A stretch of DNA of 64,000 bases from Novosphingobium sp. TH158 (lineage in GTDB: Bacteria > Pseudomonadota > Alphaproteobacteria > Sphingomonadales > Sphingomonadaceae): positions 868,001 through 932,000 of the forward strand of contig NZ_PKRT01000001.1 of NCBI RefSeq assembly GCF_002855555.1. Direction: 5' to 3'. The translations under genes and the position numbers were made by a program. A model generated the notes under the pieces. That model saw only the letters and a list, made by a program, of their open reading frames with translations, did not search any database and was not told the origin of the DNA. Shown one piece after another: positions 9,757 to 24,234 of the stretch; within the stretch, counting starts at the first letter, position 1, and every line of letters starts with the position of its first letter.

Positions 9757-12069
9757 TCAGGCCGGTTCGGCAGCCTTTTCGATCCGTCCGTAAAGCGTGG
9801 TGCGCTGGCGCAGGGTGCGACCGGCAGCGCGGGCGATATCTGCCAGGCTATCGACCGTCAGTTCCTGCCCGTGGCTTGCCCCGGCGGCACGGCTGATGCT
9901 TTCGTTCATCAGCACGCCGCCCAGATCGTTGCAGCCGGCCCGAAGCATGGCCGCCGCGCCATCGGCACCCAGCTTTACCCATGAACACTGGATCGAACCA
10001 ATGCGCGTATGCAGCACAATGCGGGCAACGGCGTGCATCAGCACCGCCTCGCGCCAGGTCGGGCCCTTGCGGCTCTGCCCCCGGCGGTACATCGGCGATT
10101 CCATGTGGACGAGCGGCAGCGGCACGAATTCGGTAAAGCCGCCGGTTTCGCCCTGCAGGCGGCGGATTGCCAGCAGGTGCCGCGCCCAGTGCAGCGGCCC
10201 TTCGATGTGGCCGAACATGATCGTCGCCGTGGTCGGCAGGCCCACCTTGTGCGCGGTACCGACGATATCGAGCCACAGCGGCGTCGTCAGCTTGTCCGGG
10301 CAGATCACCCGGCGCACTTCATCATCGAGGATCTCGGCCGCCGTGCCGGGCAGCGAACCAAGGCCCGCGTCCTTCAGGCGGCGCAGGTAGTCCGCCACCG
10401 AAACGCCCTGAGTGGTCGCGCCCTGATGGACCTCAAGCGGGGAAAAGGCATGGACGTGAAGATCGGGGCAAGCATCCTTCACTGCGCGCAAGATCGCGGC
10501 ATAGGTCTCGCCGGTGTAGGCCGGATGGATGCCGCCTTGCAGGCAGACTTCCGTCGCCCCCTTGGCCACCGCCTCCCGCGCGCGTTCGGCAACGTCTGAA
10601 GGCTCAAGCAGGTAGGGCGTGTCGCGGAAACCGGCCTTCGAACTGCTCTTGGAAAAGGCGCAGAAGGTGCAGGCATAGGTGCAGATGTTGGTGTAGTTGA
10701 TGTTGCGATTGACTACATAGGTCACTTCATCGCCCCGCACCTCGGCCCGCAGCGCGTCCGCCGCCTCGACCACCGCCTGCGCCTGCGCGCCGCGCGTCGC
10801 GAACAGGCTGGCGATTTCCTGTTCCGACAATTCGTGGCCATCGGCAGCACGATCGAGCAGCGCGTGGAGTTGCAGCGAAACCGGCCCCGGCAGGGTGCGG
10901 CCCAGCGGCGCATCGGGCGAGCCGGGAGCCGCATCGGCGATGCCGGGGCTCCAGGCGGAATCGCGGCCCAGCCATTCGCTGTCCGCCAGCCTGAGCACGG
11001 CGGGGCGGATAGCGGGATCAAGCCAGCCCTCCGCGGCAACAAACCGCGTATAGACAGTCAACCGCTCAGCCAGCGGCCGCCCGGCAGATGCGCAGATCTG
11101 TTCCAGCCGGGCAATTTCCGGCCAGGGCGCCTCGGGATTGACGTGGTCCTGCGTCACCGGGGAAATGCCGCCCCAGTCATCGATCCCTGCATCGATCAGC
11201 CGGCCCAGCCGTGCATCGTTGAGGTTCGGAGGCGCCTGCACCGAAACGCTTTCATCCAGAACAATGCGGGCCAGCGCCAGGGCGCGCAGGAATTCCTCGT
11301 CCTCCACGCCCGGGATGCCGGCCATCTTCGTGCCATCCTTGGCGCAGAAGTTCTGGACGATCACTTCCTGCAAATGGCCATGGCGGCGGTGCAGGTCATT
11401 CAACGCGATCAGCGCTTCGATCCGTTCTTCTTCGGTCTCGCCGATGCCGACGAGGATGCCGCTGGTCATCGGCACCCGCGCGCGGCCCGCCGCCTCGATG
11501 GAGGCGAGGCGCACGGCCGGAACCTTGTCGGGTGAACCGAAATGCGGACCACCCTTTTCGCCCAGCCGGTCCGCCGTGGTTTCGAGCATCAGCCCGCAGC
11601 TGGCAGAAACCGGCTTGAGCATCCGGTAATCGTCTTCGTCGAGCACACCGGCATTGATGTGCGGCAGCAGCCCGGTTTCGTTCAGCACCGCCTCGGCGCA
11701 ATGGCGCACATAGTCGATCGTCCGGGAAAAGCCTCTTTCCGCCAGCCAGTCGCGCGCGGCCGCATAGCGGCGTTCGGGCGCATCGCCGAGCGTGAACAGG
11801 GCTTCCTTGCAGCCCTGCGCGGCACCGGCGCGGGCGATCTCGAGCACTTCCTCAAGCGAAAGGTAAGGCGCGGGGACCTGCGAAGGCGTGGTCGCAAAGG
11901 TGCAGTAATGGCAGACGTCGGTGCAAAGGCGCGTCAGCGGGATGAAAACCTTGCGGCTATAGGTCATCCGCGCAGGCCCGCGTGCATCGCGCCGGGCGCG
12001 GGCTTCTTCCAGCAGGGCCTGGGTCGGCATCGCGGCAAGGCGGGCCTTCAGGCTGGTAACGGCGTCCAA
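9757..12069 (-). CDS. fbiC: FO synthase (CofG/CofH fusion), coenzyme F420 biosynthesis
   Basis: 770 residues with two radical-SAM domains. The N-terminal CofG-like half has C49-x3-C53-x2-C56 (CTDVCHYC); the C-terminal CofH-like half has CTYACTFC near residues 463-470. Together they make the 7,8-didemethyl-8-hydroxy-5-deazariboflavin chromophore from tyrosine and 5-amino-6-ribitylamino-uracil. The TTG at 12069 is chosen as start: it lies 1 bp after the cofD stop and has GGAG 7 bp upstream; an ATG at 12111 would overlap cofD by 41 bp. The fused form is the actinobacterial FbiC layout. Confidence 0.95.
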   Translation of the reverse strand: MDAVTSLKARLAAMPTQALLEEARARRDARGPARMTYSRKVFIPLTRLCTDVCHYCTFATTPSQVPAPYLSLEEVLEIARAGAAQGCKEALFTLGDAPERRYAAARDWLAERGFSRTIDYVRHCAEAVLNETGLLPHINAGVLDEDDYRMLKPVSASCGLMLETTADRLGEKGGPHFGSPDKVPAVRLASIEAAGRARVPMTSGILVGIGETEEERIEALIALNDLHRRHGHLQEVIVQNFCAKDGTKMAGIPGVEDEEFLRALALARIVLDESVSVQAPPNLNDARLGRLIDAGIDDWGGISPVTQDHVNPEAPWPEIARLEQICASAGRPLAERLTVYTRFVAAEGWLDPAIRPAVLRLADSEWLGRDSAWSPGIADAAPGSPDAPLGRTLPGPVSLQLHALLDRAADGHELSEQEIASLFATRGAQAQAVVEAADALRAEVRGDEVTYVVNRNINYTNICTYACTFCAFSKSSSKAGFRDTPYLLEPSDVAERAREAVAKGATEVCLQGGIHPAYTGETYAAILRAVKDACPDLHVHAFSPLEVHQGATTQGVSVADYLRRLKDAGLGSLPGTAAEILDDEVRRVICPDKLTTPLWLDIVGTAHKVGLPTTATIMFGHIEGPLHWARHLLAIRRLQGETGGFTEFVPLPLVHMESPMYRRGQSRKGPTWREAVLMHAVARIVLHTRIGSIQCSWVKLGADGAAAMLRAGCNDLGGVLMNESISRAAGASHGQELTVDSLADIARAAGRTLRQRTTLYGRIEKAAEPA

Positions 12070-12070
12070 T

Positions 12071-13018
12071 TCAGCACTCCACTCCGACTGCGGCCAGCAC
12101 CGCGCGCGCAAGCCGGGCCTGGTCCTCCGCCGATTTCATCAGCGTTTCGGACAAGGTGACGGCAAGCCCGCCGGTGCGCAAGGCGTCGGCGTCCTTAGCG
12201 TCCGTGCGATCTATGACGATATGGTCGATCAGCGCGCCGTAATGCGCGGCAATGTCCAGATTGGTGCCGGCAAGCCCGCGTTCGCTGAACAGCTTGGAGA
12301 GCGGTCCCTTCAGCGCCCTGCCCCCGATAAGCGGCGAAACGGCGATGCAGGGGACCTGCCGCAGACCCAGCGCCGCGCGCACGCCATCCACGGCAAGCAC
12401 CGGATCGACGCTGAGATAGGGGTTCGAAGGACAGATCACGATCGCAGCCAGATCGGGCCGGGCAAGCGCCTCGGCAAATCCCTGCGCCATGGCTGCACCG
12501 GGCGTGCCCGCAAATCGCACGGCCGTAACGGCAGGCCCGCACTGCTCGCCCACGAACCAGCGCTGGAAGTCCGTCCAGCCGCCCGGCGTGCAGACCTGCG
12601 TGCGCACCGGATCGTCGCTCATCGGGAAGACCGCGTGGCCGATCCCCATGGCGCGGGCCAGGTGGGCGGTGACATCGGACAAGCTTGCCCCTTGCCGCAG
12701 GCGCCAGCTGCGGGCGATGTGCGTCGCCATGTCGCGGTCGCCCAGGTTGAACCAGTCCTCCTCGCCGAGTGAGCGAAGCTGCTCCATCGTGCGCCACGTT
12801 TCATCCGCCAGCCCCCAGCCGCGCTGGCGGTCGTTGCGGCCGGACATGGTGTAGAGCACGGAATCGATATCCGGGCAGATCGTCAGCCCCAGGTGCTCGA
12901 AGTCGTCGCCGGTGTTGACTGCAACCGTCAGCCGGCCGGGCGCGAGGACGGCACCAAGGCCGGCCGCCAGCTTTGCACCGCCCACGCCGCCGGACAGCGC
13001 AAGGACATGGCCGCTCAC
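12071..13018 (-). CDS. cofD: 2-phospho-L-lactate (or PEP) transferase, F420 biosynthesis
   Basis: 315 residues, the FbiA/CofD length. LSGGVGGAKLAAGL at residues 8-21, the VNTGDDFEHLGL stretch and SDDPVRTQV are family signatures. It transfers the phosphoacyl group from the GDP-activated donor made by CofC onto FO, giving F420-0 or dehydro-F420-0. The GTG start at 13018 overlaps the cofE stop by 4 bp (GTGA), so the minus-strand order is cofE-cofD-fbiC, one operon. Confidence 0.95.
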   Translation of the reverse strand: MSGHVLALSGGVGGAKLAAGLGAVLAPGRLTVAVNTGDDFEHLGLTICPDIDSVLYTMSGRNDRQRGWGLADETWRTMEQLRSLGEEDWFNLGDRDMATHIARSWRLRQGASLSDVTAHLARAMGIGHAVFPMSDDPVRTQVCTPGGWTDFQRWFVGEQCGPAVTAVRFAGTPGAAMAQGFAEALARPDLAAIVICPSNPYLSVDPVLAVDGVRAALGLRQVPCIAVSPLIGGRALKGPLSKLFSERGLAGTNLDIAAHYGALIDHIVIDRTDAKDADALRTGGLAVTLSETLMKSAEDQARLARAVLAAVGVEC

Positions 13019-13755
13019 GGAAACAGGTCTCCCTCCACGGGGCGCATGATCGCAGCCGCGCCAGGGCCGTCCTCTGCCGTTCGCCAGCGCTCGGCCCCGC
13101 GCACGATCGCCACCGGCGTGCCTTCCGCGCCTTCACCCATGGCGAGCACGGCGAAGGCCGCGATGGCATCGGCGATGGCGACGACGGTTGCCTGCAAGGT
13201 CCGTCCGAACAGGTCCTGCTGCCCGCGACGATCGTCGGTCGCGATGATCCCGGCGCAGCCGATTGCCGTGCCCAGCGTGCCTTGCCGCCATGCCCGGCCA
13301 AGGCTGTCGGCGATGATTACTGCCGGTCGCCCCGGCAGAGCTGCCCGGATCGCGCGGGCCGAGGCATCCGGATCGCGCGGCCAGAGCAGCACCTTGCCCC
13401 CTTCGACATTGGATGCATCGATCCCGGAATTGGCGGTGACATGGCCCGTGCGATGGCGCGTGATGATCGCCTGCTGCGTCGCCCGCATGACGGACTGCGC
13501 CTCATCCACGATCAGCCGCGCGAGCGCCGGGTCGCGACCGGTCAGCGCGGCAAGTTCAAGCGCGGGCGGATCGGCGGTCACATCGGCCAGGTCCACCGTG
13601 CGCCCCTCTGCCTTGGAAACGATCTTCTGCGCGATCACGACCACGTCGCCGCTGCCCAGGGCAAGGCCGTCTGCCTGCGCCGCTGCGGCAATCGCCCCCG
13701 CGACATCGTCACCCGCCGCGAATTGCGGCATTGCCCGAAGCACGGAGACGGACAT
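13015..13755 (-). CDS. cofE: Coenzyme F420-0:L-glutamate ligase
   Basis: 246 residues from the ATG at 13755; GTG 13776 or TTG 13785 would add 7 or 10 residues. Family signatures are GDVVVIAQKIVSKAEGR and NSGIDASNVEGG, with a later DSLGRAWRQGT. It adds L-glutamates to F420-0. Only the CofE domain is present: the C-terminal flavin reductase-like domain of mycobacterial FbiB is missing, which bears on which phospho-donor is used. It heads the cofE-cofD-fbiC operon, divergent from npdG. Confidence 0.94.
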   Translation of the reverse strand: MSVSVLRAMPQFAAGDDVAGAIAAAAQADGLALGSGDVVVIAQKIVSKAEGRTVDLADVTADPPALELAALTGRDPALARLIVDEAQSVMRATQQAIITRHRTGHVTANSGIDASNVEGGKVLLWPRDPDASARAIRAALPGRPAVIIADSLGRAWRQGTLGTAIGCAGIIATDDRRGQQDLFGRTLQATVVAIADAIAAFAVLAMGEGAEGTPVAIVRGAERWRTAEDGPGAAAIMRPVEGDLFP

Positions 13756-13792
13756 AGTGGGGCCGAAGGCTGTCACAGGCGGCAACTCGTCA

Positions 13793-13862
13793 ACTGCAGT
13801 TCTGAATGAACGGTCCTGCCGGATCGGCAGGTTTTATGATCGCGGCTATGCGCCATGGCGCA
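13793..13862. promoter_or_regulatory. Divergent F420 control region with three palindromes
   Basis: Between cofE and npdG lie AACTGCAGTT (13793-13802), CCTGCCG-GAT-CGGCAGG followed by TTTTAT (13815-13831), and a perfect 14-bp palindrome TGCGCCATGGCGCA (13849-13862). The middle one resembles a short terminator or attenuator in the plus direction; the others look like operator sites. Which of them acts is not known. Confidence 0.4.
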
Positions 13863-13896
13863 ATTAGGCCAGACTGGGAAGAGGAAGGACATTCGC

Positions 13897-14547
13897 ATGG
13901 CACGGATCGGAGTTATCGGCGGCACGGGCGCTTTGGGCAAGGCAATTGCCCGCAGGCTGGCCAAGGCCGGGCATGAAGTAACGATCGGCAGCCGCTCTGC
14001 CGAAAGCGCCGCTGCCGCAGCGCAGGAAATCGGTGCCACGGCTGGCTGCGCGAATGACGAAGCGGCACGCGACAAGGACGTTGTCATCGTTACCGTGCCC
14101 TATTCCGCTCATGCCGATACGCTCGGCCAGATCCGCGATGTCGTCGGCAGTGCCATCGTCGTCGATGCCACCGTGCCGCTGGTGCCGCCCAAGGTGATGC
14201 GGGTGCAGCTTCCGGCTGCCGGCAGCGCAGCCGTCGAGGCGCAGGGCCACCTTGGCGAAGGCGTGCGGCTCGTTTCCGCCTTCCATTCGGTTGCGGCTCA
14301 CAAGCTGATCCATGACGAGAAGATCGAATGTGACGTTCTGGTCTTTTCCGACGATGTCGAGGCGCGCAAGGTCGTGATCGGTCTGTGCGAGGACATGGAA
14401 CTGCGCGGCCTTTCGGGCGGCGCGCTGGTCAATTCGGCAGCGGCAGAGGCGCTCACCTCAATCCTCATCTACATGAACAAGACCTACAGCGGAGATGGCG
14501 CGGGCATCCGCTTCACGGGCCTGACGGCGGCACCGGCCATTCCGTGA
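13897..14547 (+). CDS. npdG: NADPH-dependent F420 reductase
   Basis: 216 residues. The N-terminal Rossmann loop GVIGGTGALGKAIARRL with GSRS after beta-2 marks NADP binding. SAFHSVAAHKL and the C-terminal ALTSILIYMNK match the Fno/NPDG family, including the F420-binding side. It transfers hydride between NADPH and F420, recharging F420H2. ATG 13897 is chosen for its GAGGAAGG ribosome site; an upstream ATG at 13855 sits inside a palindrome. It overlaps cofC by GTGA. Confidence 0.93.
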   Translation: MARIGVIGGTGALGKAIARRLAKAGHEVTIGSRSAESAAAAAQEIGATAGCANDEAARDKDVVIVTVPYSAHADTLGQIRDVVGSAIVVDATVPLVPPKVMRVQLPAAGSAAVEAQGHLGEGVRLVSAFHSVAAHKLIHDEKIECDVLVFSDDVEARKVVIGLCEDMELRGLSGGALVNSAAAEALTSILIYMNKTYSGDGAGIRFTGLTAAPAIP

Positions 14548-15140
14548 CAGTCTGGGTCATCATCCCGGTAAAGGCTTCTGCCGCCGCCAAGGGGCGGCTG
14601 GCGCAGGCCCTCACCGCGGATGAGCGCAACCACCTGTCGCAGGCCATGCTGCGCCGTGCCGTGAAAGCAAGCTGCGCGGCAGTGGGAGGCGAGCGCGTAC
14701 TGCTCGTCGGCCAGTCGCCCATCGATCTGCCCCATGGCGTGGAGGTGCTTGGCGAGCCCGAAGGCGGCCTTAACGCGGCACTGGCCCACGCCCGGGCCGA
14801 AGTTTCCCGGCGCGGCGCAACGCGCGTGATATCGCTGGCGGCCGACCTGCCACTGGTCGCGCGCGAGGATGTGCTTGCCCTGGCGAACCTGCCTGATGCC
14901 CAGGCCACCATAGCGCCTGACCGGCACGGAACCGGCACCAACGCACTGTCGCTCCCCCTGCCCGACGCGCTGGGATTTTCCTACGCCTATGGCCTTGGCA
15001 GCTGCGAGCTTCACCTTGCCGAGGCGCGCCGCCTTGGCCTGGCCATGACCAGGACCGAGCGGCCGGGCCTGGCACGGGATGTCGATGAACCTGCCGATCT
15101 CGTCGATGCGCGCGATCTCCTGATCCGCCAGCAAGGGTGA
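14544..15140 (+). CDS. cofC: 2-phospho-L-lactate guanylyltransferase (F420 biosynthesis)
   Basis: 198 residues from the GTG at 14544 overlapping the npdG stop. The N-terminal VIIPVKASAAAKGRLA is the nucleotidyltransferase signature of CofC/FbiD, and ISLAADLPLVAREDV carries the acidic metal ligands. DRHGTGTNAL is also typical. It activates 2-phospholactate, PEP or 3-phosphoglycerate with GTP for CofD; the actual donor cannot be read from sequence. Its stop overlaps a possible GTG start of the following SDR, so all four plus-strand genes are probably one transcript. Confidence 0.93.
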   Translation: MTVWVIIPVKASAAAKGRLAQALTADERNHLSQAMLRRAVKASCAAVGGERVLLVGQSPIDLPHGVEVLGEPEGGLNAALAHARAEVSRRGATRVISLAADLPLVAREDVLALANLPDAQATIAPDRHGTGTNALSLPLPDALGFSYAYGLGSCELHLAEARRLGLAMTRTERPGLARDVDEPADLVDARDLLIRQQG

Positions 15141-15145
15141 CTGCA

Positions 15146-16006
15146 ATGGACAAGCCAATGATCGACCTTACCGGCAAGGCCGCTTTCGTTACCGGCGGCG
15201 GCGGCGGGATCGGGCGCGCCTCGGCGCTGGCGCTCGCTGCGGCAGGCGCAGATGTTGCGGTGATCGACGTGATCCCCGAACGCTGCGACGAGGTGGTGGC
15301 CCGCGTGCGCGAAATGGGGCGCAATGCATTGGGCATTGCCGGCAATGTCATGGAAACGCAGGTGGTAGGCGATGCGGTCGATGCCGCCGCTGCCGAGTTC
15401 GGCCGGCTCGACGTGCTCGTCAACAATGCCGGCGGGGTCACCTGGCGCGCCTTTGCCGATCTGGCCGAGAAGAACTGGCGCCGCCACATCGATCTCAACC
15501 TGGTATCGAACCTGGCCGCAACCTCGGCAGCCCTGCCGCACATGATCGCGGCGGGCGGCGGAGCCGTGGTCAACGTCACCTCGATCGAGGCGGACCGCGC
15601 CGCGCCCGGCTATGCCGTCTATGCCGCTTGCAAGGCCGGGATCAACAACCTCACCCGCACCCTGTCGGTCGAATTTTCCGAACATGGCATCCGGGTGAAC
15701 GCCATTGCCCCGGATTTCACCGCAACTCCCGGCACCATGGGCAATTTCACCGGCCCGGTGGACGAATCCGCCTGGCCGAAGATGGACGGCGACCGGGCCG
15801 AAGTGTTGCGCCGGAGAATCCCGCTCGGCCGCGTCGGCATTGATCAGGAATGCGGCAACCTTGTCGCATTTCTTGCCTCTCCCCTCGCCTCCTACATCAC
15901 CGGCGCGATCATTCCCGTCGATGGCGGCACCTGGGCTAGCGGCGGCTGGATTCGCAGCGATAGTGGCAAGTGGGTGCTGCCGCCGGAAATGCCGAAACAG
16001 GGCTGA
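15146..16006 (+). CDS. SDR family oxidoreductase in the F420 operon
   Basis: 286 residues from ATG 15146, which has AAGGG 8 bp upstream; a GTG at 15137 overlapping the cofC stop would add 3 residues. TGGGGGIG near residue 16, NNAGG near residue 95 and the catalytic YAACK near residue 158 define a classical SDR; the C-terminus IPVDGGTW is typical. It sits between cofC and an F420-type LLM oxidoreductase, so it likely shares a pathway with the F420-dependent step. It is not a known F420 biosynthesis enzyme. Confidence 0.9.
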   Translation: MDKPMIDLTGKAAFVTGGGGGIGRASALALAAAGADVAVIDVIPERCDEVVARVREMGRNALGIAGNVMETQVVGDAVDAAAAEFGRLDVLVNNAGGVTWRAFADLAEKNWRRHIDLNLVSNLAATSAALPHMIAAGGGAVVNVTSIEADRAAPGYAVYAACKAGINNLTRTLSVEFSEHGIRVNAIAPDFTATPGTMGNFTGPVDESAWPKMDGDRAEVLRRRIPLGRVGIDQECGNLVAFLASPLASYITGAIIPVDGGTWASGGWIRSDSGKWVLPPEMPKQG

Positions 16007-16030
16007 ACCAGCACCGGGAGAGAAAACGAC

Positions 16031-16948
16031 ATGAGCTTCCCCGTCAGCATCAGCCTGCCCTTCGACCATATCGACCACCCGGAAGAATTCATCTCGATGG
16101 AGGCGGTCGCGGAGATCTGCCGCACGGCAGAAGCGGCGGGCTTTTCCGCCGGCTGCGTGACCGACCATCCGGTACCCGGTTCGCGCTGGCTGGATAACGG
16201 CGGCCACTATGCGCAGGATCCCTTTGTCATGCTGTCGCTGATCGCTGCGGTGACCACGAAGCTGCGGCTGCATACGAACATCCTGGTCCTGCCCTATCGT
16301 AACCCCTTCATCACCGCCCGGTCGGTTGCCACGCTCGACGTGTTCTCCGGCGGGCGCGTGATCCTGGGCATGGGCGCGGGCTACCTGAAGGCGGAATACA
16401 AGGCGCTGGGGGTCGATTTCGATGCCCGCAACGATCTGATGGACGAATATATCACGGCGATGAAACTGGCCTGGACGGGCGAGGATTTCGCTTTCGCGGG
16501 CACCGGCTATTCCGCCCCCGGCAACCGCATGCGCCCTGTGCCGATGCAGAGCCCCCATCCGCCGCTGCTGGTCGGCGGGAACAGCCGCCGCGCCATCCGC
16601 CGCGCGGTGGAGCTGGGCGATGCCTGGCACCCCTTCTTCGCGCCCGCCGCAGTAACGGCCACCGCGCGCACCGTCTCGCTTGCCGAGGAAGAGGATATCG
16701 ACGCCGCGCTGGCCTATCTTCACGCCCATTGCGAAAAGGTGGGCCGCGCCCAGCCGCCGCAGATCATCCTGTCCAGCGTGTTCACCATCAAGCCGGGATA
16801 CAGCCCGCAGGAAGCCATCGATATCATCTGCGGCTACCGCGAAAAGGGCACGCATGGCGCAGGCGCCAGCATCTTCGTGAACAGCCGTGCCGAGTGGTGC
16901 GAACTGGCGCGCGACTTCGGTGAGCGGGTCCTGCCGCGCCTGGGCTGA
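16031..16948 (+). CDS. LLM class F420-dependent oxidoreductase
   Basis: 305 residues with the luciferase-like TIM barrel. It shows the TIGR03619-type pattern: DHPVPGSRW, LHTNILVLPYRNP, GRVILGMGAGYLKAE, and PLLVGGNSRRAIRRA near residue 185. Members use F420H2 for hydride transfer to ketones, imines or activated double bonds, though some use FMN. Position at the end of the npdG-cofC-SDR operon supports F420. It follows the SDR after 24 bp with a GGGAGA ribosome site. Its substrate is probably handled by the nearby SDR or dehydrogenases. Confidence 0.9.
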   Translation: MSFPVSISLPFDHIDHPEEFISMEAVAEICRTAEAAGFSAGCVTDHPVPGSRWLDNGGHYAQDPFVMLSLIAAVTTKLRLHTNILVLPYRNPFITARSVATLDVFSGGRVILGMGAGYLKAEYKALGVDFDARNDLMDEYITAMKLAWTGEDFAFAGTGYSAPGNRMRPVPMQSPHPPLLVGGNSRRAIRRAVELGDAWHPFFAPAAVTATARTVSLAEEEDIDAALAYLHAHCEKVGRAQPPQIILSSVFTIKPGYSPQEAIDIICGYREKGTHGAGASIFVNSRAEWCELARDFGERVLPRLG

Positions 16949-16999: not shown

Positions 17000-17027
17000 T
17001 TGATCCGTTCAACAGTTGAACTATCAT
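17000..17027 (+). promoter_or_regulatory. Promoter with embedded palindromic operator (probable MarR site)
   Basis: A -35-like TTGATC (17000-17005) and a -10-like TATCAT (17022-17027) are 16 bp apart. A perfect palindrome GTTCAAC-A-GTTGAAC (17007-17021) fills the spacer almost exactly. A repressor bound there would block RNA polymerase. The operon it starts contains a MarR gene at 22888, and MarR proteins favour palindromes of this size. Confidence 0.6.
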
Positions 17028-17066: not shown

Positions 17067-17837
17067 ATGAAAGGGCTTTGGCCGATCCTGCCATCCGCGA
17101 TGCTGCTTGCTGCGGCACCGGCGCTGGCACAACCGGCGGACCTGCCGATCGCCCCCGCCACGACAGACGTTTTCCCGCCCGGCGTGAAGGTTATCAAGAG
17201 CCCCTCGGGCTCCGTCTTCGCCAATGACAAGGGCGTTACGCTCTACGGCATGGACATGCGCGTGCTGTGGCGCGCGGGGTCGGATCCGTCGCAGTTCTGC
17301 AAGGGCGAATGCGCCGCCCAGTGGGAGCCGCTGCTCGCTCCGCCGGGGACCAAGCCCAACCTTGCCCTGCCCCGCGGTTTCGGCCGCCCCGCGCCCTTTA
17401 CCGACTGGATGGTGATGGAAAGCGCCGCCGGTGCGCAATGGGTCTACAAGGGCTGGCACCTGGTATTCGTGCGCAAGGGCGACAAGCCCGGCACCACCAC
17501 TTACGAAGGTGCGGAAGACCTGACCTGGAACACGTTGAAGTTCGTTCCGCCGGCGCCAAAGATCGTTGCCCCGCAAACGGTATCGACCCGCTGGCGGGAC
17601 AAGGAATACGTGCTTGCCGACAAGGAAGGCCGGGTGCTGTTCACCGGTTCGTGCAAGAAGACTTGTGCCGACTGGCATCCCCTGCCAGCCCCGGCGGCAG
17701 GCCGCGATATCGGCGAATGGTCCGTCTCGCGCACGGGCGACGTGCCGCAGTGGACCTGGCGCGGCAAACCGGTGTTTTTCAGCATGGCAGATGACCCCGC
17801 CACCCTTCCCGCATCGGCGCGGGTGCTGAAGCCATGA
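17067..17837 (+). CDS. Exported protein with two PF03640-type secreted repeats
   Basis: 256 residues. The first about 21 residues are a Sec signal (LLAAAPALAQ). Two copies of the COG4315/PF03640 'secreted repeat' follow. The first has TLYGMDM...CKGECAAQWEPL (around residue 75), the second has VLFTGSCKKTCADWHPL (around residue 195), each with a CxxxC pair and a W-x-P. The role of this repeat is not established; some members occur with redox proteins. ATG 17067 has AGGAGACGGGGG before it. First gene of the exported redox-like operon; its stop overlaps the next start (ATGA). Confidence 0.8.
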   Translation: MKGLWPILPSAMLLAAAPALAQPADLPIAPATTDVFPPGVKVIKSPSGSVFANDKGVTLYGMDMRVLWRAGSDPSQFCKGECAAQWEPLLAPPGTKPNLALPRGFGRPAPFTDWMVMESAAGAQWVYKGWHLVFVRKGDKPGTTTYEGAEDLTWNTLKFVPPAPKIVAPQTVSTRWRDKEYVLADKEGRVLFTGSCKKTCADWHPLPAPAAGRDIGEWSVSRTGDVPQWTWRGKPVFFSMADDPATLPASARVLKP

Positions 17838-19036
17838 AGCGCGCAATGGGGAACAGGCAGATGATGAAGCAGCCCTTGATGATCGCCGCCGGCCTTGCCG
17901 CGCTTGCTGCCGGATCGATGGCGGGCGGCCCGCGCACGATGACGCAGCCGGCCATTGCCGAAAGCCCGGCGCAGGCCCTGCCCGCTCCGCCGGCCAATGG
18001 CGTGATGGGCTTTGTCGTCAGCGATTTCACGCCGCCGGTGATCCAGGGCAAGGATGCCTGCCCCGATGGCCCGGCGCTGAAGCTGCGTGACAGCTACCTC
18101 GCCGGGCTCGATCCCGGGGAGCGGGCGCGGCTGACGCTCAAGGAGAACGAGAAGGAACTGACCAGCCGCTGGCAGGCAACTGCTTTCGGGCCCAACGGCA
18201 CCAACCTCTGTTCGCAGCCCGACATGTTCAAGCGACCCGAGATGCGCACCGTGCAAAGCAAGGTCGCCTGGGGGCTCGACCTTGACGAAGGCGGCGGCGG
18301 CGACACCTGCGCGCACGAAGGCTTCACCACGCCGACCGGCGAGACCGGGATCGACAACCAGGAATACCGCGCGCTTGGCTGCAAGCTGGAATGGCGCGGC
18401 GTCGATGGCATGACCGGGGACCAGGAAGTGGGCCTCAAGCAGTTCTACAGCTCGGGCGAATGGACGCAGGTGATCCTGCTCAAGGGCGTGGACAGCTTGC
18501 AGAACGATCCGCAGGTCGAGGTCATCTATGCCAACACGCCCGACCGGCCGGTGATCGACGGCAAGGGCAACTGGCTGCGCGGCATGACCTTTTCGATCAG
18601 CGACACCGCACCGCGCCATCGCAACGTGCTGAAGGGCAAGATCGTCAACGGCGTGCTGACCACCGAACCGGCGACGATCAAGCTCGCGCAGACCTGGGGC
18701 CAGGGCGGCACACGCGACATTCGCGGCAACCGCGGCAAGTGGGAATACCACAAGGCCCGCATCCGGCTGGCTTTCCAGCCCGACGGCAGCATGAAGGGCA
18801 TGCTGGGCGGCTATCGTCCGGTGTTCGATCCGATCCTCAGCCCCTCGCTGGGTGGCGCAGGATCGGCGCTGGTCGCGGGGATCGACTGCGCGGCAGAACT
18901 CGCCGCGCTGAAGAAGCTGGCCGATGGCCTGAAGGATCCGAAGACCGGCAAGTGCACCGGCATTTCCGGGGCGCAGCGCATGGCGGCAATCCCCGCCTTC
19001 GTGAACGACATTCCGCAAAGGACGGCATCGCGATGA
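17834..19036 (+). CDS. Exported protein of unknown function (six Cys)
   Basis: 400 residues; no known domain is recognised. The N-terminus (MKQPLMIAAGLAALAAGSM after a short basic leader) looks like a Sec signal. The mature part has six cysteines spaced along the chain, compatible with disulfides in the periplasm, and many beta-type stretches such as QVEVIYANTPDRPVIDGKG. Both ends overlap neighbours by ATGA, so it is an obligate member of the operon between the PF03640 protein and the DUF1592 cytochrome-like protein. It may be a scaffold or substrate-binding partner (inference). Confidence 0.75.
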   Translation: MKRAMGNRQMMKQPLMIAAGLAALAAGSMAGGPRTMTQPAIAESPAQALPAPPANGVMGFVVSDFTPPVIQGKDACPDGPALKLRDSYLAGLDPGERARLTLKENEKELTSRWQATAFGPNGTNLCSQPDMFKRPEMRTVQSKVAWGLDLDEGGGGDTCAHEGFTTPTGETGIDNQEYRALGCKLEWRGVDGMTGDQEVGLKQFYSSGEWTQVILLKGVDSLQNDPQVEVIYANTPDRPVIDGKGNWLRGMTFSISDTAPRHRNVLKGKIVNGVLTTEPATIKLAQTWGQGGTRDIRGNRGKWEYHKARIRLAFQPDGSMKGMLGGYRPVFDPILSPSLGGAGSALVAGIDCAAELAALKKLADGLKDPKTGKCTGISGAQRMAAIPAFVNDIPQRTASR

Positions 19037-20727
19037 AACTCCGCAAGACGCTTGCCCTCGGCCTCGCCGCCAGCGCCCTTGGCTTCGCCGGCTGGTCGCT
19101 TTCGCCACAGGCGACACAGGCGGTCGCCGCATCCTCGCCCGCGGCGGTTTCTACGCCTGCCGGGCAGATCGTCGCCATGCGGCGCATCACCGAGGCGCAG
19201 TACCGCAACGCGATTGCCGATATCTTCGGCCCCGACATCACCGTTGCCGGTCGGTTCGAGCCGGTGGTCCGCCCGGTCGGCGAGCTGATCGCCAGCGGAT
19301 CGAGCGAGGCGGCAATCTCTCCCGCCGGACTCGAACAGTTCGATGCCATGGCGCGGGTGATCGCGGGACAGGTGTTCAACGATGCCCATCGCGGACAGTT
19401 CATGGACTGCCAGCCGGCCAGCGCCGAACGCTTCGATGCCGATTGCGCGGGCAAGGTGCTGACGCCGCTGGGCCGCTACCTGTTCCGCCGACCCATGACT
19501 GGGGCCGAAACCGCCTTTTACGTGCGGCTGGCCGAACAGGGTGCGGCACCCACAAAGTCCTTCCACAAGGGGCTTGAGCTGTCGCTGGCGGCGATGCTCA
19601 CCTCGCCCAGCTTCCTCTACATCATCGAGACGGCGGAGCCCGATCCGGCCAATCCCGGCGGCCTGCGGCTCGATAACTACAGCCGGGCCACCCGTCTGGC
19701 GATGACGCTGTGGAACACCACCCCCAACGACAACCTGCTGAATGCCGCCGCTGCCGGTGACCTGACCGACCCGGCAAGGCTTGATGCCGTGGTTGCCCGC
19801 ATGGTCCAGTCACCCCGGCTCGAGGCCGGTACGCGCGCCTTCTTCGCCGACATGCTCAAGTTCGAGAAATTCGACGAGCTGGCGAAGGACCCGATCATCT
19901 ATCCCTACTTCAACCAGGATGTGCTGAAGGCCCTGCCCGAGCAGATGCTGCGGACGATCACCGATCACCTGCTGACCCGCAATGGCGATTATCGCGAGCT
20001 CTTCACCACCCGCCGCACCTTCATGACGCGCGCGCTGGGCGGTGTTTATCAGGTGCCGGTATCCCGTTCCGAAGGCTGGGTGCCCTACGAATTCAGCCCG
20101 GATGACGACCGTGCCGGCCTGCTCGGCCAGGCGGGGTTCCTGGCGCTCTATTCGCATTCCGGCCGCTCCTCTCCCACCCTGCGCGGTCGGGCGATCCGCG
20201 AGCTGATGATGTGCCAGGAGGTTCCCAACCCGCCGGGCGACGTCAATTTCACCGCCGTGCAGGACACGGCCAACAAGGCCATGCCCACCGCGCGCATCCG
20301 GCTTTCGGCGCACAACACCGATCCGGTCTGCGCCGCCTGTCACAAGATTACCGACCCGCCGGGCTTCGCGCTTGAACGCTTCGACGGCATCGGCGCCTTC
20401 CGCAAGACCGAGAACGACACCCTCATCGACCATTCCGGTGCGCTGGGGCTTGCCAAGTTCACCGGTGCGGCCGGGCTGGGCCAGGCGATGAACGCCTCGG
20501 GCGCGACCACGCAGTGCGTCGCCTCGCGGGCAATGGAATATGCAACCGGCCGCCCGACCCGGGATGCCGCGCTGATCGAGGCGATGGACAAGGCCTTCGC
20601 CGCACGCGGCTATGGCATCCGGGCACTGTTCCAGCAGGTGATGACGCGCCCGGAAACCTGGCGCGTCCCCGCTGCCGGGGCGCTCGGCGGCACAACTCAC
20701 GTCAGCTACAACGGCTTCAAGCGATAA
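19033..20727 (+). CDS. DUF1592/DUF1588/DUF1585 protein with c-type heme motif
   Basis: 564 residues with an N-terminal signal (about residues 1-33). The chain follows the DUF1587-family order: RRITEAQYRNAI early, then LGRYLFRRPMT, DUF1592-type SPSFLYIIE, DUF1588-type FLALYSHSGRSSPTLRGRAIRE, and a C-terminal DUF1585. One CxxCH heme site is visible (C433-A-A-C436-H437) in CAACHKITDPPGFALERFD. Such proteins abound in planctomycetes and some proteobacteria as periplasmic cytochromes of unproven role, usually paired with DUF1552 proteins as here. Confidence 0.88.
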   Translation: MKLRKTLALGLAASALGFAGWSLSPQATQAVAASSPAAVSTPAGQIVAMRRITEAQYRNAIADIFGPDITVAGRFEPVVRPVGELIASGSSEAAISPAGLEQFDAMARVIAGQVFNDAHRGQFMDCQPASAERFDADCAGKVLTPLGRYLFRRPMTGAETAFYVRLAEQGAAPTKSFHKGLELSLAAMLTSPSFLYIIETAEPDPANPGGLRLDNYSRATRLAMTLWNTTPNDNLLNAAAAGDLTDPARLDAVVARMVQSPRLEAGTRAFFADMLKFEKFDELAKDPIIYPYFNQDVLKALPEQMLRTITDHLLTRNGDYRELFTTRRTFMTRALGGVYQVPVSRSEGWVPYEFSPDDDRAGLLGQAGFLALYSHSGRSSPTLRGRAIRELMMCQEVPNPPGDVNFTAVQDTANKAMPTARIRLSAHNTDPVCAACHKITDPPGFALERFDGIGAFRKTENDTLIDHSGALGLAKFTGAAGLGQAMNASGATTQCVASRAMEYATGRPTRDAALIEAMDKAFAARGYGIRALFQQVMTRPETWRVPAAGALGGTTHVSYNGFKR

Positions 20728-20745
20728 GGCCCGAGGAGAACCACC

Positions 20746-22086
20746 ATGGGATACGATCTCAGCCGCAGAACCGCACTTCGGGGCATGATGGGCGGCGCTG
20801 CCGTTACCGTTGGCGTGCCCCTGCTCGACTGCTTCCTCGACGGCAATGGCCAGGCCATGGCCGCGACCGGCAAGCCGGTGCCGATCCGCTTCGGCACCTG
20901 GTTCTGGGGCCTTGGCGTGAACCCCAACCGCTGGTTCCCCAGCAAGCAGGGCAAGGGCTATGACCTGAAGCCGGAACTCGCGCCGATCGCGCCCTTGCAG
21001 GACAAGATCTCGATCCTGGGCGGGTTCAACGTGCCGCTGGATGGCGCGCCCAACCTGCCCCACGTCAGCGGCGGCGCGGCGGTTCGAACCGGACGCGCGC
21101 TGACGGCGGAACGCGGTCTGCCCGGCGAAAGCTTCGACGTGACCATCGGTGACCGCATCAGCACCCGATCGCGCTTTGCCGCGCTGGACCTTTCGGCCAC
21201 GGGCGATCCGCGCAATTCGCTTTCGGGGCGCGGCGGCGGCAACCTCAACCCGGCGGAAGTCTCGGCCGCAGGGCTCTACCAGCGCATCTTCGGCCTTGGC
21301 TTCAAGGATCCGAACAGCGGCAGCTTTACCCCCGATCCGCAGGTAATGGCCCGCCGTTCGGTGCTTTCGGGCGTAACCGAGCAGCGCCAGTCGCTGGAGC
21401 GCGCGGTGGGTGCGGCCGACAAGGCGAAGCTTGACCAGTACTTCACATCGCTGCGCCAGCTGGAAAACCAGCTTGAGGTCGAACTGACCAAGCCCGAACC
21501 GCTGCAGGCCTGCAAGGTGCCGACCAAGGTGCCGCAGCTGGCGGTGAATGCCGAAATCGAAAACGTGATGAAAAGCCACGAGCTGATGACCGACCTGCTC
21601 GTCATGGCGCTTGCCTGCGATCAGACGCGGGTGTTCAACATGATGTTCAACAACGGCGCCAGCTCGCTCACCCGCATCGGCTCTACCATCACGCACCACC
21701 AGCTGACGCATGAGGAAGTGCTCGACAACCGGCTGGGCTACCAGCCCGAGGCCACCTACTTCCTCACCAAGATCATGGAAGCCTGGCTCTATTTCGTCAC
21801 CGCGCTCGACAAGGTGAAGGAAGGCGACAAGACCCTGCTCGACAACACGCTGGTCTTTGCCCACTCGGAAACCGAATTTGCCAAGTTCCACACGATCGAC
21901 AACCTGCCGATGATGATCGCCGGTTCGGCCGGCGGCAGGCTCAAGTCCGGCGTCTACGTCGATGGTGCCGGATCGCCGATCAGCCGTGTCGGCCTGACGC
22001 TCCAGCAGGTCATGGGCGTGCCGCTTGATCGTTGGGGGGCAAAGTCGATGGAAACGAACAAGTCCATCGGGGAGATCCTGGCGTGA
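20746..22086 (+). CDS. DUF1552 domain protein with Tat-type signal
   Basis: 446 residues. The N-terminus LSRRTALRGMMGGAAVTVG resembles a twin-arginine signal. The rest fits DUF1552: FGTWFWGLGVN, HVSGGAAVRTGR, and a late LVFAHSETEFAKFHTIDNLP resembling the sulfatase/alkaline-phosphatase-like ending of DUF1501/1552 proteins. AGGAGAA precedes the ATG. In other genomes it is the standing partner of DUF1592 proteins. Tat export implies folding, and possibly cofactor loading, in the cytoplasm. Its stop overlaps the next GTG start. Confidence 0.85.
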   Translation: MGYDLSRRTALRGMMGGAAVTVGVPLLDCFLDGNGQAMAATGKPVPIRFGTWFWGLGVNPNRWFPSKQGKGYDLKPELAPIAPLQDKISILGGFNVPLDGAPNLPHVSGGAAVRTGRALTAERGLPGESFDVTIGDRISTRSRFAALDLSATGDPRNSLSGRGGGNLNPAEVSAAGLYQRIFGLGFKDPNSGSFTPDPQVMARRSVLSGVTEQRQSLERAVGAADKAKLDQYFTSLRQLENQLEVELTKPEPLQACKVPTKVPQLAVNAEIENVMKSHELMTDLLVMALACDQTRVFNMMFNNGASSLTRIGSTITHHQLTHEEVLDNRLGYQPEATYFLTKIMEAWLYFVTALDKVKEGDKTLLDNTLVFAHSETEFAKFHTIDNLPMMIAGSAGGRLKSGVYVDGAGSPISRVGLTLQQVMGVPLDRWGAKSMETNKSIGEILA

Positions 22087-22574
22087 AGGTGCTCGGGGTA
22101 CTCGGGCTTTCGGCGGCGCTGCTTTCGGGCGCGCCCGCCCCGGCGCAGGACGCGGCCAAGGCGCAGGCGGCGCCGGCAGCAACCTCGCTCGCCATGGTCA
22201 TCCCTGCGCTGAACGTTTCCGACGTGGCGGCATCCAGCCGCTTCTATGTCGACGCCCTGGGTATGAAACTGCTGGCCCAGCGGCATAACGAGACCTTCCT
22301 CAGCCTAGGCCCCGATGCGAAGCAGCCGGTGGTCATGCTGATGCGCGATCCGGAACTGAAGCAGAATCCCGTCATCACCCAGGGCACCGGGTTCAACCGG
22401 CTGGTCCTGCGCGTTGCGGGCCTGACTGAAATAGTGGCGCGACTGAAAGCGGGCGGCTACAAGGTCAGCGACATTCGCGACGTATCGATGGGGTATCGCA
22501 TGGCAATGGCCACCGATCCCGATGGATATCGTCTGGAACTTGTGGAAGCTGGGGCAAGACCGGAGAAGAAGTGA
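22083..22574 (+). CDS. Exported VOC family protein
   Basis: 163 residues from the GTG at 22083, which overlaps the DUF1552 stop. The first about 20 residues (VLGVLGLSAALLSGAPAPAQ) form a Sec signal, unusual because VOC proteins are normally cytoplasmic. A glyoxalase/bleomycin-resistance fold follows: SLAMVIPALNVSDVAASSRFY near the start of the mature part and ATDPDGYRLELVE at the end, whose Glu is a usual metal ligand. It could bind a metal and a small organic molecule in the periplasm. It is coupled to the HiPIP gene by TGATG. Confidence 0.8.
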   Translation: MKVLGVLGLSAALLSGAPAPAQDAAKAQAAPAATSLAMVIPALNVSDVAASSRFYVDALGMKLLAQRHNETFLSLGPDAKQPVVMLMRDPELKQNPVITQGTGFNRLVLRVAGLTEIVARLKAGGYKVSDIRDVSMGYRMAMATDPDGYRLELVEAGARPEKK

Positions 22575-22888
22575 TGCAAGAAAATCGTCGCCGTTTCCTG
22601 CAGTGGGCTGCCCTTGCGCCCGTCGCCGCCATTGCCGCCACGCGGTCTGGCAATGCCCTGGCCAACGGCGCCGGGACAAACGCCTGTTACGATCCCGCCA
22701 CGCTGCCGATGTCGCAGAAAAGCCTGCGCCGCTCGGTGGAATATGTCAACGTCTCGGCCGACCCGTCAAAGCGCTGCGGCCTTTGCGCGTTCTACCAGGC
22801 GAAGGGCGATTGCGGCAGCTGCCAGATCCTCACCTCGGTCGTCAGCCCGGCCGCCTATTGCAGTTCCTACGCACCCAAAGCGGGCTGA
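22574..22888 (+). CDS. High-potential iron-sulfur protein (HiPIP), Tat-exported
   Basis: 104 residues. A Tat-like signal (RRRFLQWAALAPVAAIAA) opens the chain. C68, C71, C83 (or C80) and C96, with the RCGLCAFYQ and PAAYCSSYAPKAG context, match the four-Cys 4Fe-4S site of HiPIPs. HiPIPs are periplasmic one-electron carriers at high potential, often donating to or accepting from c-type cytochromes. Start ATG 22574 overlaps the VOC stop; the stop overlaps the MarR start (TGATG). It fits as the electron carrier for the heme protein in this operon. Confidence 0.88.
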   Translation: MQENRRRFLQWAALAPVAAIAATRSGNALANGAGTNACYDPATLPMSQKSLRRSVEYVNVSADPSKRCGLCAFYQAKGDCGSCQILTSVVSPAAYCSSYAPKAG

Positions 22889-23403
22889 TGTCGGCAGCGC
22901 TGGAGAATCCGCAGCGCGAAGCCATCCTGCGTCGCATCAATTATTCCGTGGGGGATCGCCTGCCTGAAAGCGGGCCCCTCACCTGGGACGATTACGGGTT
23001 GCTGGCGCAGGGACTGGCCATGGCCGCGCGGCCGCTGCACCTGGCAACGCGCACCGTGACGGAGCGCTATTCGCTGGGGCCGCGCGGCGCGTGGCTGCTT
23101 AACCTGATCAACGCAGGCATCGTTTTCCCGCACGAGCTGGCCGAGGTGTTCGGCATCGGTCGCAGCCTCATTTCGTCGGAGCTTTCGCGCCTTGCCGAAG
23201 CGGGCCTGATCGAAAGCCGCCCCGGCGCAACCGATCGCCGTCGGACCGAGCTGGCACTGACCGAGCTGGGCAACCGCGAAATGCTGGCGATCCGCGCCGG
23301 GATCGAGAAGAACCTTGCAGAAGCGCTTGCGGATTACAGCGCGGAGGAAATCCGCCTGTGCGCCCGCATGCTCGGCACCCTGCGCGAGAAGGTTTCCATC
23401 TGA
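22888..23403 (+). CDS. MarR family transcriptional regulator
   Basis: 171 residues. The winged-helix segment lies at about residues 60-115, with ELAEVFGIGRSLISSELSRL as recognition helices and SRPGATDRRRTELALTELG as the wing. It is translationally coupled to the HiPIP gene (TGATG), so it is part of the operon it most likely controls; the palindrome at 17007-17021 in the operon promoter is the probable binding site. MarR proteins commonly respond to aromatic or phenolic ligands; the ligand here is unknown. Confidence 0.9.
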   Translation: MSAALENPQREAILRRINYSVGDRLPESGPLTWDDYGLLAQGLAMAARPLHLATRTVTERYSLGPRGAWLLNLINAGIVFPHELAEVFGIGRSLISSELSRLAEAGLIESRPGATDRRRTELALTELGNREMLAIRAGIEKNLAEALADYSAEEIRLCARMLGTLREKVSI

Positions 23404-23418
23404 AGCAGGACAAGCCTG

Positions 23419-24234
23419 ATGCCGCATCCGATCGCCATCGATTTCATCACCGCGCTGGGCCAGGACCCGGTGGAAATGGTGCACCTTTGCGCCGATCTTG
23501 GCGTGCAGGCTGTCTCGCTGGCCCTGACGCCGACGGTAAAGGTCTCTGACGATGCACCGGGCTGGTCCATGCGCGAAGACAGCGGGCTGCGCCGGTCGGT
23601 TGCCGCCGCACTGGCCGAACGGGAGGTGCGCCTGCTCGTCTGCGAGGGCTTCCTCATCCATCCGCAGATGGACATTGCCAATGCCGCGCACGATCTCGAT
23701 CTTGTTGCCGAACTTGGTGCCGGCGCGGTCAACTGCGTGTCCATCGAGCATGACGAGGCCCGCGGCCACGCCCAGTTCGCCCTTCTGGCAAGCCTTGCGC
23801 ACGAACGCGGCATGCGGGCGTTCATCGAATACATGCCCTTCGTGGCGGTGGACACGCTTGCCAAGGCGATCGCCTGCGTGCGGCAGGCGGGACCGGGTGC
23901 GGCAATCGTGCTGGACGCCATGCATTTCTTCCGCACCGGCACCGCGATTGCCGATCTGGCCGCGCTCGACCCCGCGCTGATCGGCCATGCCCAGCTGTGC
24001 GATGCCCTGGCCGGCCTGCCGCCCGAACAATACATGGATGCCGCCAAGCATGATCGCCTTTCCCCCGGCGAAGGCGACCTTCCGCTCGGCGAATTCCTGG
24101 CGGCGCTGCCAGATGGCCTGCCGGTCGGCCTCGAAATCCCGCAGCGCTCGCGGGCGCAGGCGGGTGAGGATCACCGCCGCCGCATCGAAAACCTGATCGC
24201 CGCCGCAAGAGGTTTTTCGACAGAGCTGTTGTAA
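23419..24234 (+). CDS. Sugar phosphate isomerase/epimerase-like TIM barrel
   Basis: 271 residues of the xylose isomerase-like (AP endonuclease 2) barrel. Possible metal ligands are in FIEYMPF (Glu near residue 137), VLDAMHFF (Asp/His near residue 170) and HAQLCDA. It starts 15 bp after the MarR stop and ends the operon. Members include isomerases, epimerases and hydrolases for sugar-like or inositol-like substrates; the reaction here is not defined. Its presence suggests the operon handles an organic substrate rather than only electrons. Confidence 0.82.
   Translation: MPHPIAIDFITALGQDPVEMVHLCADLGVQAVSLALTPTVKVSDDAPGWSMREDSGLRRSVAAALAEREVRLLVCEGFLIHPQMDIANAAHDLDLVAELGAGAVNCVSIEHDEARGHAQFALLASLAHERGMRAFIEYMPFVAVDTLAKAIACVRQAGPGAAIVLDAMHFFRTGTAIADLAALDPALIGHAQLCDALAGLPPEQYMDAAKHDRLSPGEGDLPLGEFLAALPDGLPVGLEIPQRSRAQAGEDHRRRIENLIAAARGFSTELL

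Follow-up and report, generated by a model that had tools for sequence, protein, structure and literature searches.

The window analysed here, a stretch of 64 kb from the 2.98 Mb genome of Novosphingobium sp. TH158, contains eight open reading frames between positions 17067 and 24234, all on the forward strand and all found where an earlier note on this DNA had placed them. The first (17067..17837) encodes a putative secreted protein, a divergent member of the PF03640 (Lipoprotein_15) kind with two CxxxC motifs, and shares an ATGA overlap at 17834 with the gene of a secreted six-Cys protein (17834..19036). A second ATGA overlap at 19033 leads into the gene of a secreted c-heme protein (19033..20727) with the domain order PSD3-PSD5-PSD4-PSCyt3-PSD2 (DUF1587/1595/1592/1588/1585) and a CAACH motif, here called the DUF1592 protein. 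After an 18-nt gap, with a GAGGAG site ahead of the start codon, follows a Tat-exported DUF1552 (HXXSHH) protein with a His-rich conserved site (20746..22086). Its gene overlaps by GTGA at 22083 with the GTG-initiated gene of a secreted VOC/glyoxalase-fold protein (22083..22574; Pfam match E 1.6e-13), and TGATG overlaps at 22574 and 22888 join the latter to the gene of a predicted, Tat-exported HiPIP-like [4Fe-4S] carrier (22574..22888) and this one to a MarR-type regulator (22888..23403; MarR_2, E 3.3e-8), likely local to the operon. The VOC protein, in a layout of the Sphingomonadales, and the HiPIP are accessory. The last gene, 15 nt further, encodes an AP_endonuc_2 TIM-barrel protein (23419..24234; E 4.5e-15) and was judged to lie outside the module. 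The overlaps are those described earlier, and the arrangement is beyond chance, since the gene order is repeated in other species. Six of the eight products are probably exported, as had been proposed: N-termini read by eye suggest Sec-type signals for genes 1, 2, 3 and 5 and twin-arginine signals for DUF1552 and the HiPIP. RNA elements and tRNAs were not found within the 64-kb window.

A promoter-like site, TTGATC-16-TATCAT, is located ahead of the operon on the forward strand (17000..17027). Its spacer is overlapped by a perfect palindrome, GTTCAACAGTTGAAC (17007..17021, no strand), of which the exact sequence occurs only once in the 64 kb. Because the MarR gene sits inside the operon, the simplest reading of this palindrome is that of a candidate operator for the operon's own regulator. 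In the nearest named relative, Novosphingobium sp. MW5 (locus L012, DUF1552 88% identical), both promoter hexamers are kept upstream of the orthologous operon and the flanks differ. The palindrome has the same place there and reads GTTCAA-GTC-TTGAAC, with the arms kept and the centre changed. It is absent from loci L010 and L011, in which the gene ahead of the operon encodes cytochrome c'.

Directly upstream of the operon, FbiC (CofG and CofH parts), CofD, CofE, CofC and an F420-NADP oxidoreductase make up a full F420 set. Complete F420 biosynthesis together with an F420-type LLM oxidoreductase (9757-16948) was observed in an alphaproteobacterium. CofD scored above the cut-off in 40 of 301 genomes of the same family, among them nine of the ten with a six-Cys module (Fisher p 5e-8) or, counted by genus, 7/7 versus 18/89 (p 4e-5), values that are a guide only since related genomes enter as independent. 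On the chromosome, F420 genes and six-Cys module are usually unlinked. Downstream of the operon a Rieske oxygenase, sulfotransferase-like and SnoaL-like proteins, TauD-type dioxygenases, an amidohydrolase and an acyl-CoA synthetase are encoded, and from this gene content the surroundings look like a catabolic island.

The six-Cys family was searched for in 84,980 species genomes, which yielded 191 relatives; the best 80 were retained. To these 80 loci the comparison added 14 from the family of the host and the second copy that its genome carries. Among the best 80 of the 191, DUF1552 was present in 62 loci, DUF1592 in 58 and a PF03640-type gene in 44, many of the remaining loci ending at a contig border. 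In 63 of 67 instances DUF1552 comes after DUF1592 in the same orientation. The core is spread over Alphaproteobacteria, Acidobacteriota, relatives of Steroidobacter and others. Tandem copies of the whole four-gene unit were found in four loci (L017, L019, L026 and L031), and in three (L083, L015 and L021) the six-Cys protein and the PF03640 repeats are fused in one reading frame. The complete layout of the window, minus the TIM gene, recurs in L010, L011, L012 and L110.

Of the 301 same-family genomes, 15 contain DUF1552 above the cut-off; ten of these 15, and no others, contain the six-Cys family. In each of the ten, both genes share one locus (Fisher p 2e-15, with genomes counted as independent, which they are not). 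The other five DUF1552 genomes lack a six-Cys gene, and their DUF1592 protein is longer and has CxxCH twice. The second copy in the genome studied here (L003) consists of six-Cys, DUF1592 and DUF1552 in the order of the window, with identities of 48% for DUF1552 and 33% for the six-Cys protein between the copies. Next to it are encoded a molybdenum hydroxylase and a PQQ dehydrogenase that carries a cytochrome c domain; a further neighbour was assigned to the DUF1080 type on sequence alone.

The core is formed by the six-Cys protein, the c-heme DUF1592 protein and the Tat-exported DUF1552 protein, usually with the PF03640-repeat protein, and thus counts three or four genes. A unit of all eight genes was dismissed, with the TIM gene in no related locus and the MarR, VOC and HiPIP genes only in some. 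A joint function, which the earlier note had extended to the whole operon, is strongly supported for genes 1-4, because their order is conserved, all ten six-Cys genomes of the family also have DUF1552, the unit is duplicated in tandem in four loci and genes 1 and 2 can be fused.

Two further gene kinds were observed around the core. Between DUF1552 and six-Cys, L078 (8499-9137) and ten further loci encode a secreted family whose members have ∼200 residues and share the motif MVPPAxPGVF; these loci are from Bradyrhizobium, Acidobacteriota and others, and the one representative scanned had no Pfam match. TonB-dependent receptors are located near the module in many loci, e.g. L084 and L047, with profile matches in 28 of those examined, which would suit a substrate that is large or poorly soluble and has to be taken up.

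The DUF1592 protein contains the five Pfam domains in the order given above (DUF1588 E 1.4e-27, DUF1592 E 1.8e-26, and also DUF1595, DUF1585 and DUF1587), along with its CAACH heme motif. Among 43 members, DUF1595, DUF1592, DUF1588 and DUF1585 are present in all and DUF1587 in 40. The CxxCH in DUF1588 is likewise found in 43 of 43; four other Cys are invariant as well, as is a His located six residues ahead of the motif. An N-terminal PSCyt1 cytochrome domain was not detected by Pfam in the window protein; L105 has one. Weak matches to DUF1800 (nine of the 43 proteins, best E 2.5e-4) and, for some, to PSCyt2 suggest that DUF1592, DUF1800 and PSCyt2 proteins belong to one wider superfamily. To our knowledge, DUF1800 has no invariant CxxCH. 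In L105-L108, which are of the type with a two-heme DUF1592 protein and DUF1552, cytochrome c' and b561 genes were observed ∼1.3-1.8 kb beyond DUF1552, with an ankyrin-repeat protein in between (confirmed by Pfam in L106 only).

The proteins of genes 1 and 2 are less easily placed. The name of a PF03640-repeat protein, given to gene 1 before, holds through its relatives: the window protein itself had no match to PF03640 at E 0.01, and the assignment was made because the relatives carry four PF03640 repeats (E 3e-29). Six Cys are indeed present in the protein of gene 2. They characterise a subfamily, for among 49 relatives Cys76 and Cys183 alone are invariant, so that not all six are essential to the family. 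This protein has no Pfam or NCBIfam relative. Its predicted model (pLDDT 85.5, pTM 0.86) shows a beta-rich fold and gave no fold match in the PDB at E 0.001; matches to photosystem II PsbO and to an avidin-like fold were too weak and were set aside. Profile searches for solved relatives of the six-Cys, DUF1592 and DUF1552 proteins gave none even at E 1.

Electron carriers recur around the module. In the related clusters cytochrome c' was found in 23 loci, cytochrome b561 in 17 and a HiPIP-like protein in 14, nearly all adjoining a core gene; representatives of the three were confirmed with Pfam. A PQQ dehydrogenase is sometimes present as well. No carrier gene was seen in 60 of 90 six-Cys loci within the stretches examined, partly on account of contig ends. 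In the same-family genomes, cytochrome c' lies within a few kb of DUF1552 in 13 of the 15 with DUF1552, for a family present in only 88 of the 301. The HiPIP of the window matches PF01355 with E 2.6e-4 and 21.6 bits, just under the cut-off of 22 bits, and five of its relatives are above it. In 14 HiPIP-like sequences the cluster ligands CxxC ... C ... C are conserved, together with two extra Cys; the shared pattern comprises CxxC, CGxC, a last Cys and one upstream Cys. In five genomes the HiPIP occurs as a single copy, each time at the module.

In the window itself the HiPIP is present, and cytochrome c' and b561 are absent. A set of cytochrome c', b561 and cytochrome c was observed elsewhere in the same genome (G000 C1, 1004.7-1006.4 kb; L136, 6705-8391), ∼73 kb downstream of the window end and unlinked to the module, which it could serve in trans. 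At the second copy, the molybdenum hydroxylase large subunit and the PQQ dehydrogenase (L003, 1330-4146 and 6245-8692) seem to have a C-terminal domain of ∼100 residues in common, possibly for docking or anchoring. The XDH profile also matches the PQQ protein at this locus.

The invariant CxxCH and the recurring cytochrome c', b561, HiPIP and PQQ-dehydrogenase neighbours support the redox part of the earlier proposal. In the preferred reading, with a probability of about 0.5, genes 1-4 encode a module for electron transfer outside the cytoplasm, in the service of a catabolic step. This reading starts from genes, motifs, conservation, co-occurrence and carrier neighbours, all taken from sequence. 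The four proteins, which may together form the one multi-part oxidoreductase of the earlier note, a physical complex with a single reaction, would contribute to the processing of a substrate, either in the periplasm or on the cell surface. The DUF1588 domain, once loaded with c-heme, would relay electrons, and the module would exchange them with a soluble carrier, the HiPIP here and cytochrome c' in relatives. This carrier would in turn exchange with membrane cytochrome b561 and the quinone pool, in one direction or the other. DUF1552, with its His/Asp/Glu site and a putative metal, the six-Cys protein and the PF03640-like protein would form the substrate-binding or catalytic side. The operon, probably controlled by its own MarR protein at the palindromic operator, would serve the catabolic island with its Rieske oxygenase, SDR, F420-dependent LLM oxidoreductase, sulfotransferase-like protein, TauD, amidohydrolase and acyl-CoA synthetase.

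DUF1552 matches PF07586 with 173 bits (cut-off 30; E 1.4e-50) and its twin-arginine RR is invariant in 44 of 44 sequences. In Foldseek the predicted model (pLDDT 86.5) matches sulfatases and alkaline phosphatases, sulfatases best (E 1.9e-7, probability 1.00, TM-scores ∼0.3-0.4), and the fold is predicted to be of the alkaline-phosphatase/sulfatase type, which does not support a redox role for every member. D99, H106, H318, H322, E323, E324, D366, D/E375 and H382 are invariant or nearly so. The formylglycine motif C-x-P-x-R is absent. Judged from motif spacing, His106 (43/44), and not a Cys, Ser or Thr, apparently occupies the nucleophile position of sulfatases, although Ser/Thr108, present in 42 of 44, may be the nucleophile instead. 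By the same comparison, the spacing of H318-x3-H322 is reminiscent of the metal pair D-x3-H in alkaline phosphatase.

These matches bear on a different reading, that of a hydrolytic or transferase system in which an extracytoplasmic DUF1552 would cleave a sulfate, phosphate or other ester and the heme protein would be structural or redox-sensing only. Sulfotransferase-like genes in the window and the frequent presence of sulfatase genes near PSCyt genes in Verrucomicrobia (PMC5615132) agree with the fold in this respect. However, the formylglycine motif is lacking and, by motif spacing, a near-invariant His106 apparently takes the nucleophile position, within a conserved set of H106, H318, H322, H382, D99, D366 and D/E375, and the recurring cytochromes and HiPIP would be unexpected for a hydrolase. 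Such a system is considered unlikely. Similarly improbable is an electron flow in reverse, in which quinol, b561 and cytochrome c' or HiPIP would feed the module, either to reduce the substrate or to activate an extracytoplasmic oxygen-dependent enzyme. The b561 and cytochrome c' neighbours would fit this, as would the analogy with CjX183 of the DUF1587-containing Cbp2D, which gives electrons to LPMOs (PMC8981238), but the PQQ dehydrogenase and molybdenum hydroxylase beside other copies are electron sources and not sinks. Mere co-regulation of separately acting parts of a catabolic island, with no shared machine, is very improbable, for although the VOC, MarR, TIM, Rieske and SDR neighbours vary among loci and the patchy distribution suggests island transfer, the core order is held over large distances, with fusions, duplication of the unit and complete co-occurrence.

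An electron-transfer module of genes 1-4, the preferred reading, has among its closest known counterparts the PSCyt3/PSD genes of Planctomycetes and Verrucomicrobia, which have the same five Pfam domains as its heme protein. PSCyt3 genes usually adjoin one family of unknown genes (PMC5615132), which we infer to be DUF1552. Compared with the two-heme PSCyt members, the window protein is missing PSCyt1 and has one heme motif instead of two, and the module adds two further secreted subunits and separate carriers to the PSCyt3/PSD pair. The DUF1800-DUF1501 pair (PMC5122149) follows the same logic, with a Tat-exported protein (DUF1501) beside its partner, but the families differ; it is reported with chitin synthases and its function is not known. 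A predicted fold is shared with the alkaline phosphatase/sulfatase superfamily, from which DUF1552 differs by its His-rich site and its lack of a formylglycine motif.

Cbp2D of Cellvibrio japonicus (X158, DUF1587, X183, X132) is, like the module's heme protein, exported and equipped with DUF1587 and c-heme domains, and its X183 domain, a proven cytochrome c, can reduce LPMOs (PMC8981238). However, it is one multi-domain protein with a carbohydrate-binding module and a quinone-binding domain, for which DUF1552, six-Cys and PF03640 partners are not reported. The Pfam content of the window protein did not show the Cbp2D combination of an X158 quinone domain, a CBM and X183 in one protein, the X domains being without a profile.

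In the literature searched, no function is reported for DUF1552, DUF1592 or PF03640, and nothing is known of the function of PSCyt/PSD or DUF1552/DUF1501 (PMC5615132). Nor was a report found, in the literature searchable here, of the six-Cys family, the PF03640 partner or the carriers with these genes. Planctomycetes and Verrucomicrobia have many PSCyt/PSD and DUF1552/DUF1501 genes, and two related domains have 41 copies each in Rhodopirellula (PMC2754498). It is conceivable, if rather doubtful, that these genes and the module are the same machine and represent a new class of multi-subunit extracytoplasmic oxidoreductases, in which DUF1552, with its alkaline-phosphatase fold, would perform the chemistry at a His-rich metal site that replaces the usual nucleophile and pass electrons over the DUF1588 heme to HiPIP or to cytochrome c' and b561. 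The module is a good candidate for an undescribed extracytoplasmic redox system. Its sphingomonad version is compact and has defined partners and dedicated carriers, candidates for the regulator and the operator, and surroundings of catabolic genes, all of which make it testable in a culturable group. Compared with the earlier descriptions, what is new here is a six-Cys family, a PF03640 partner and electron carriers attached to a known but unexplained kind of gene.
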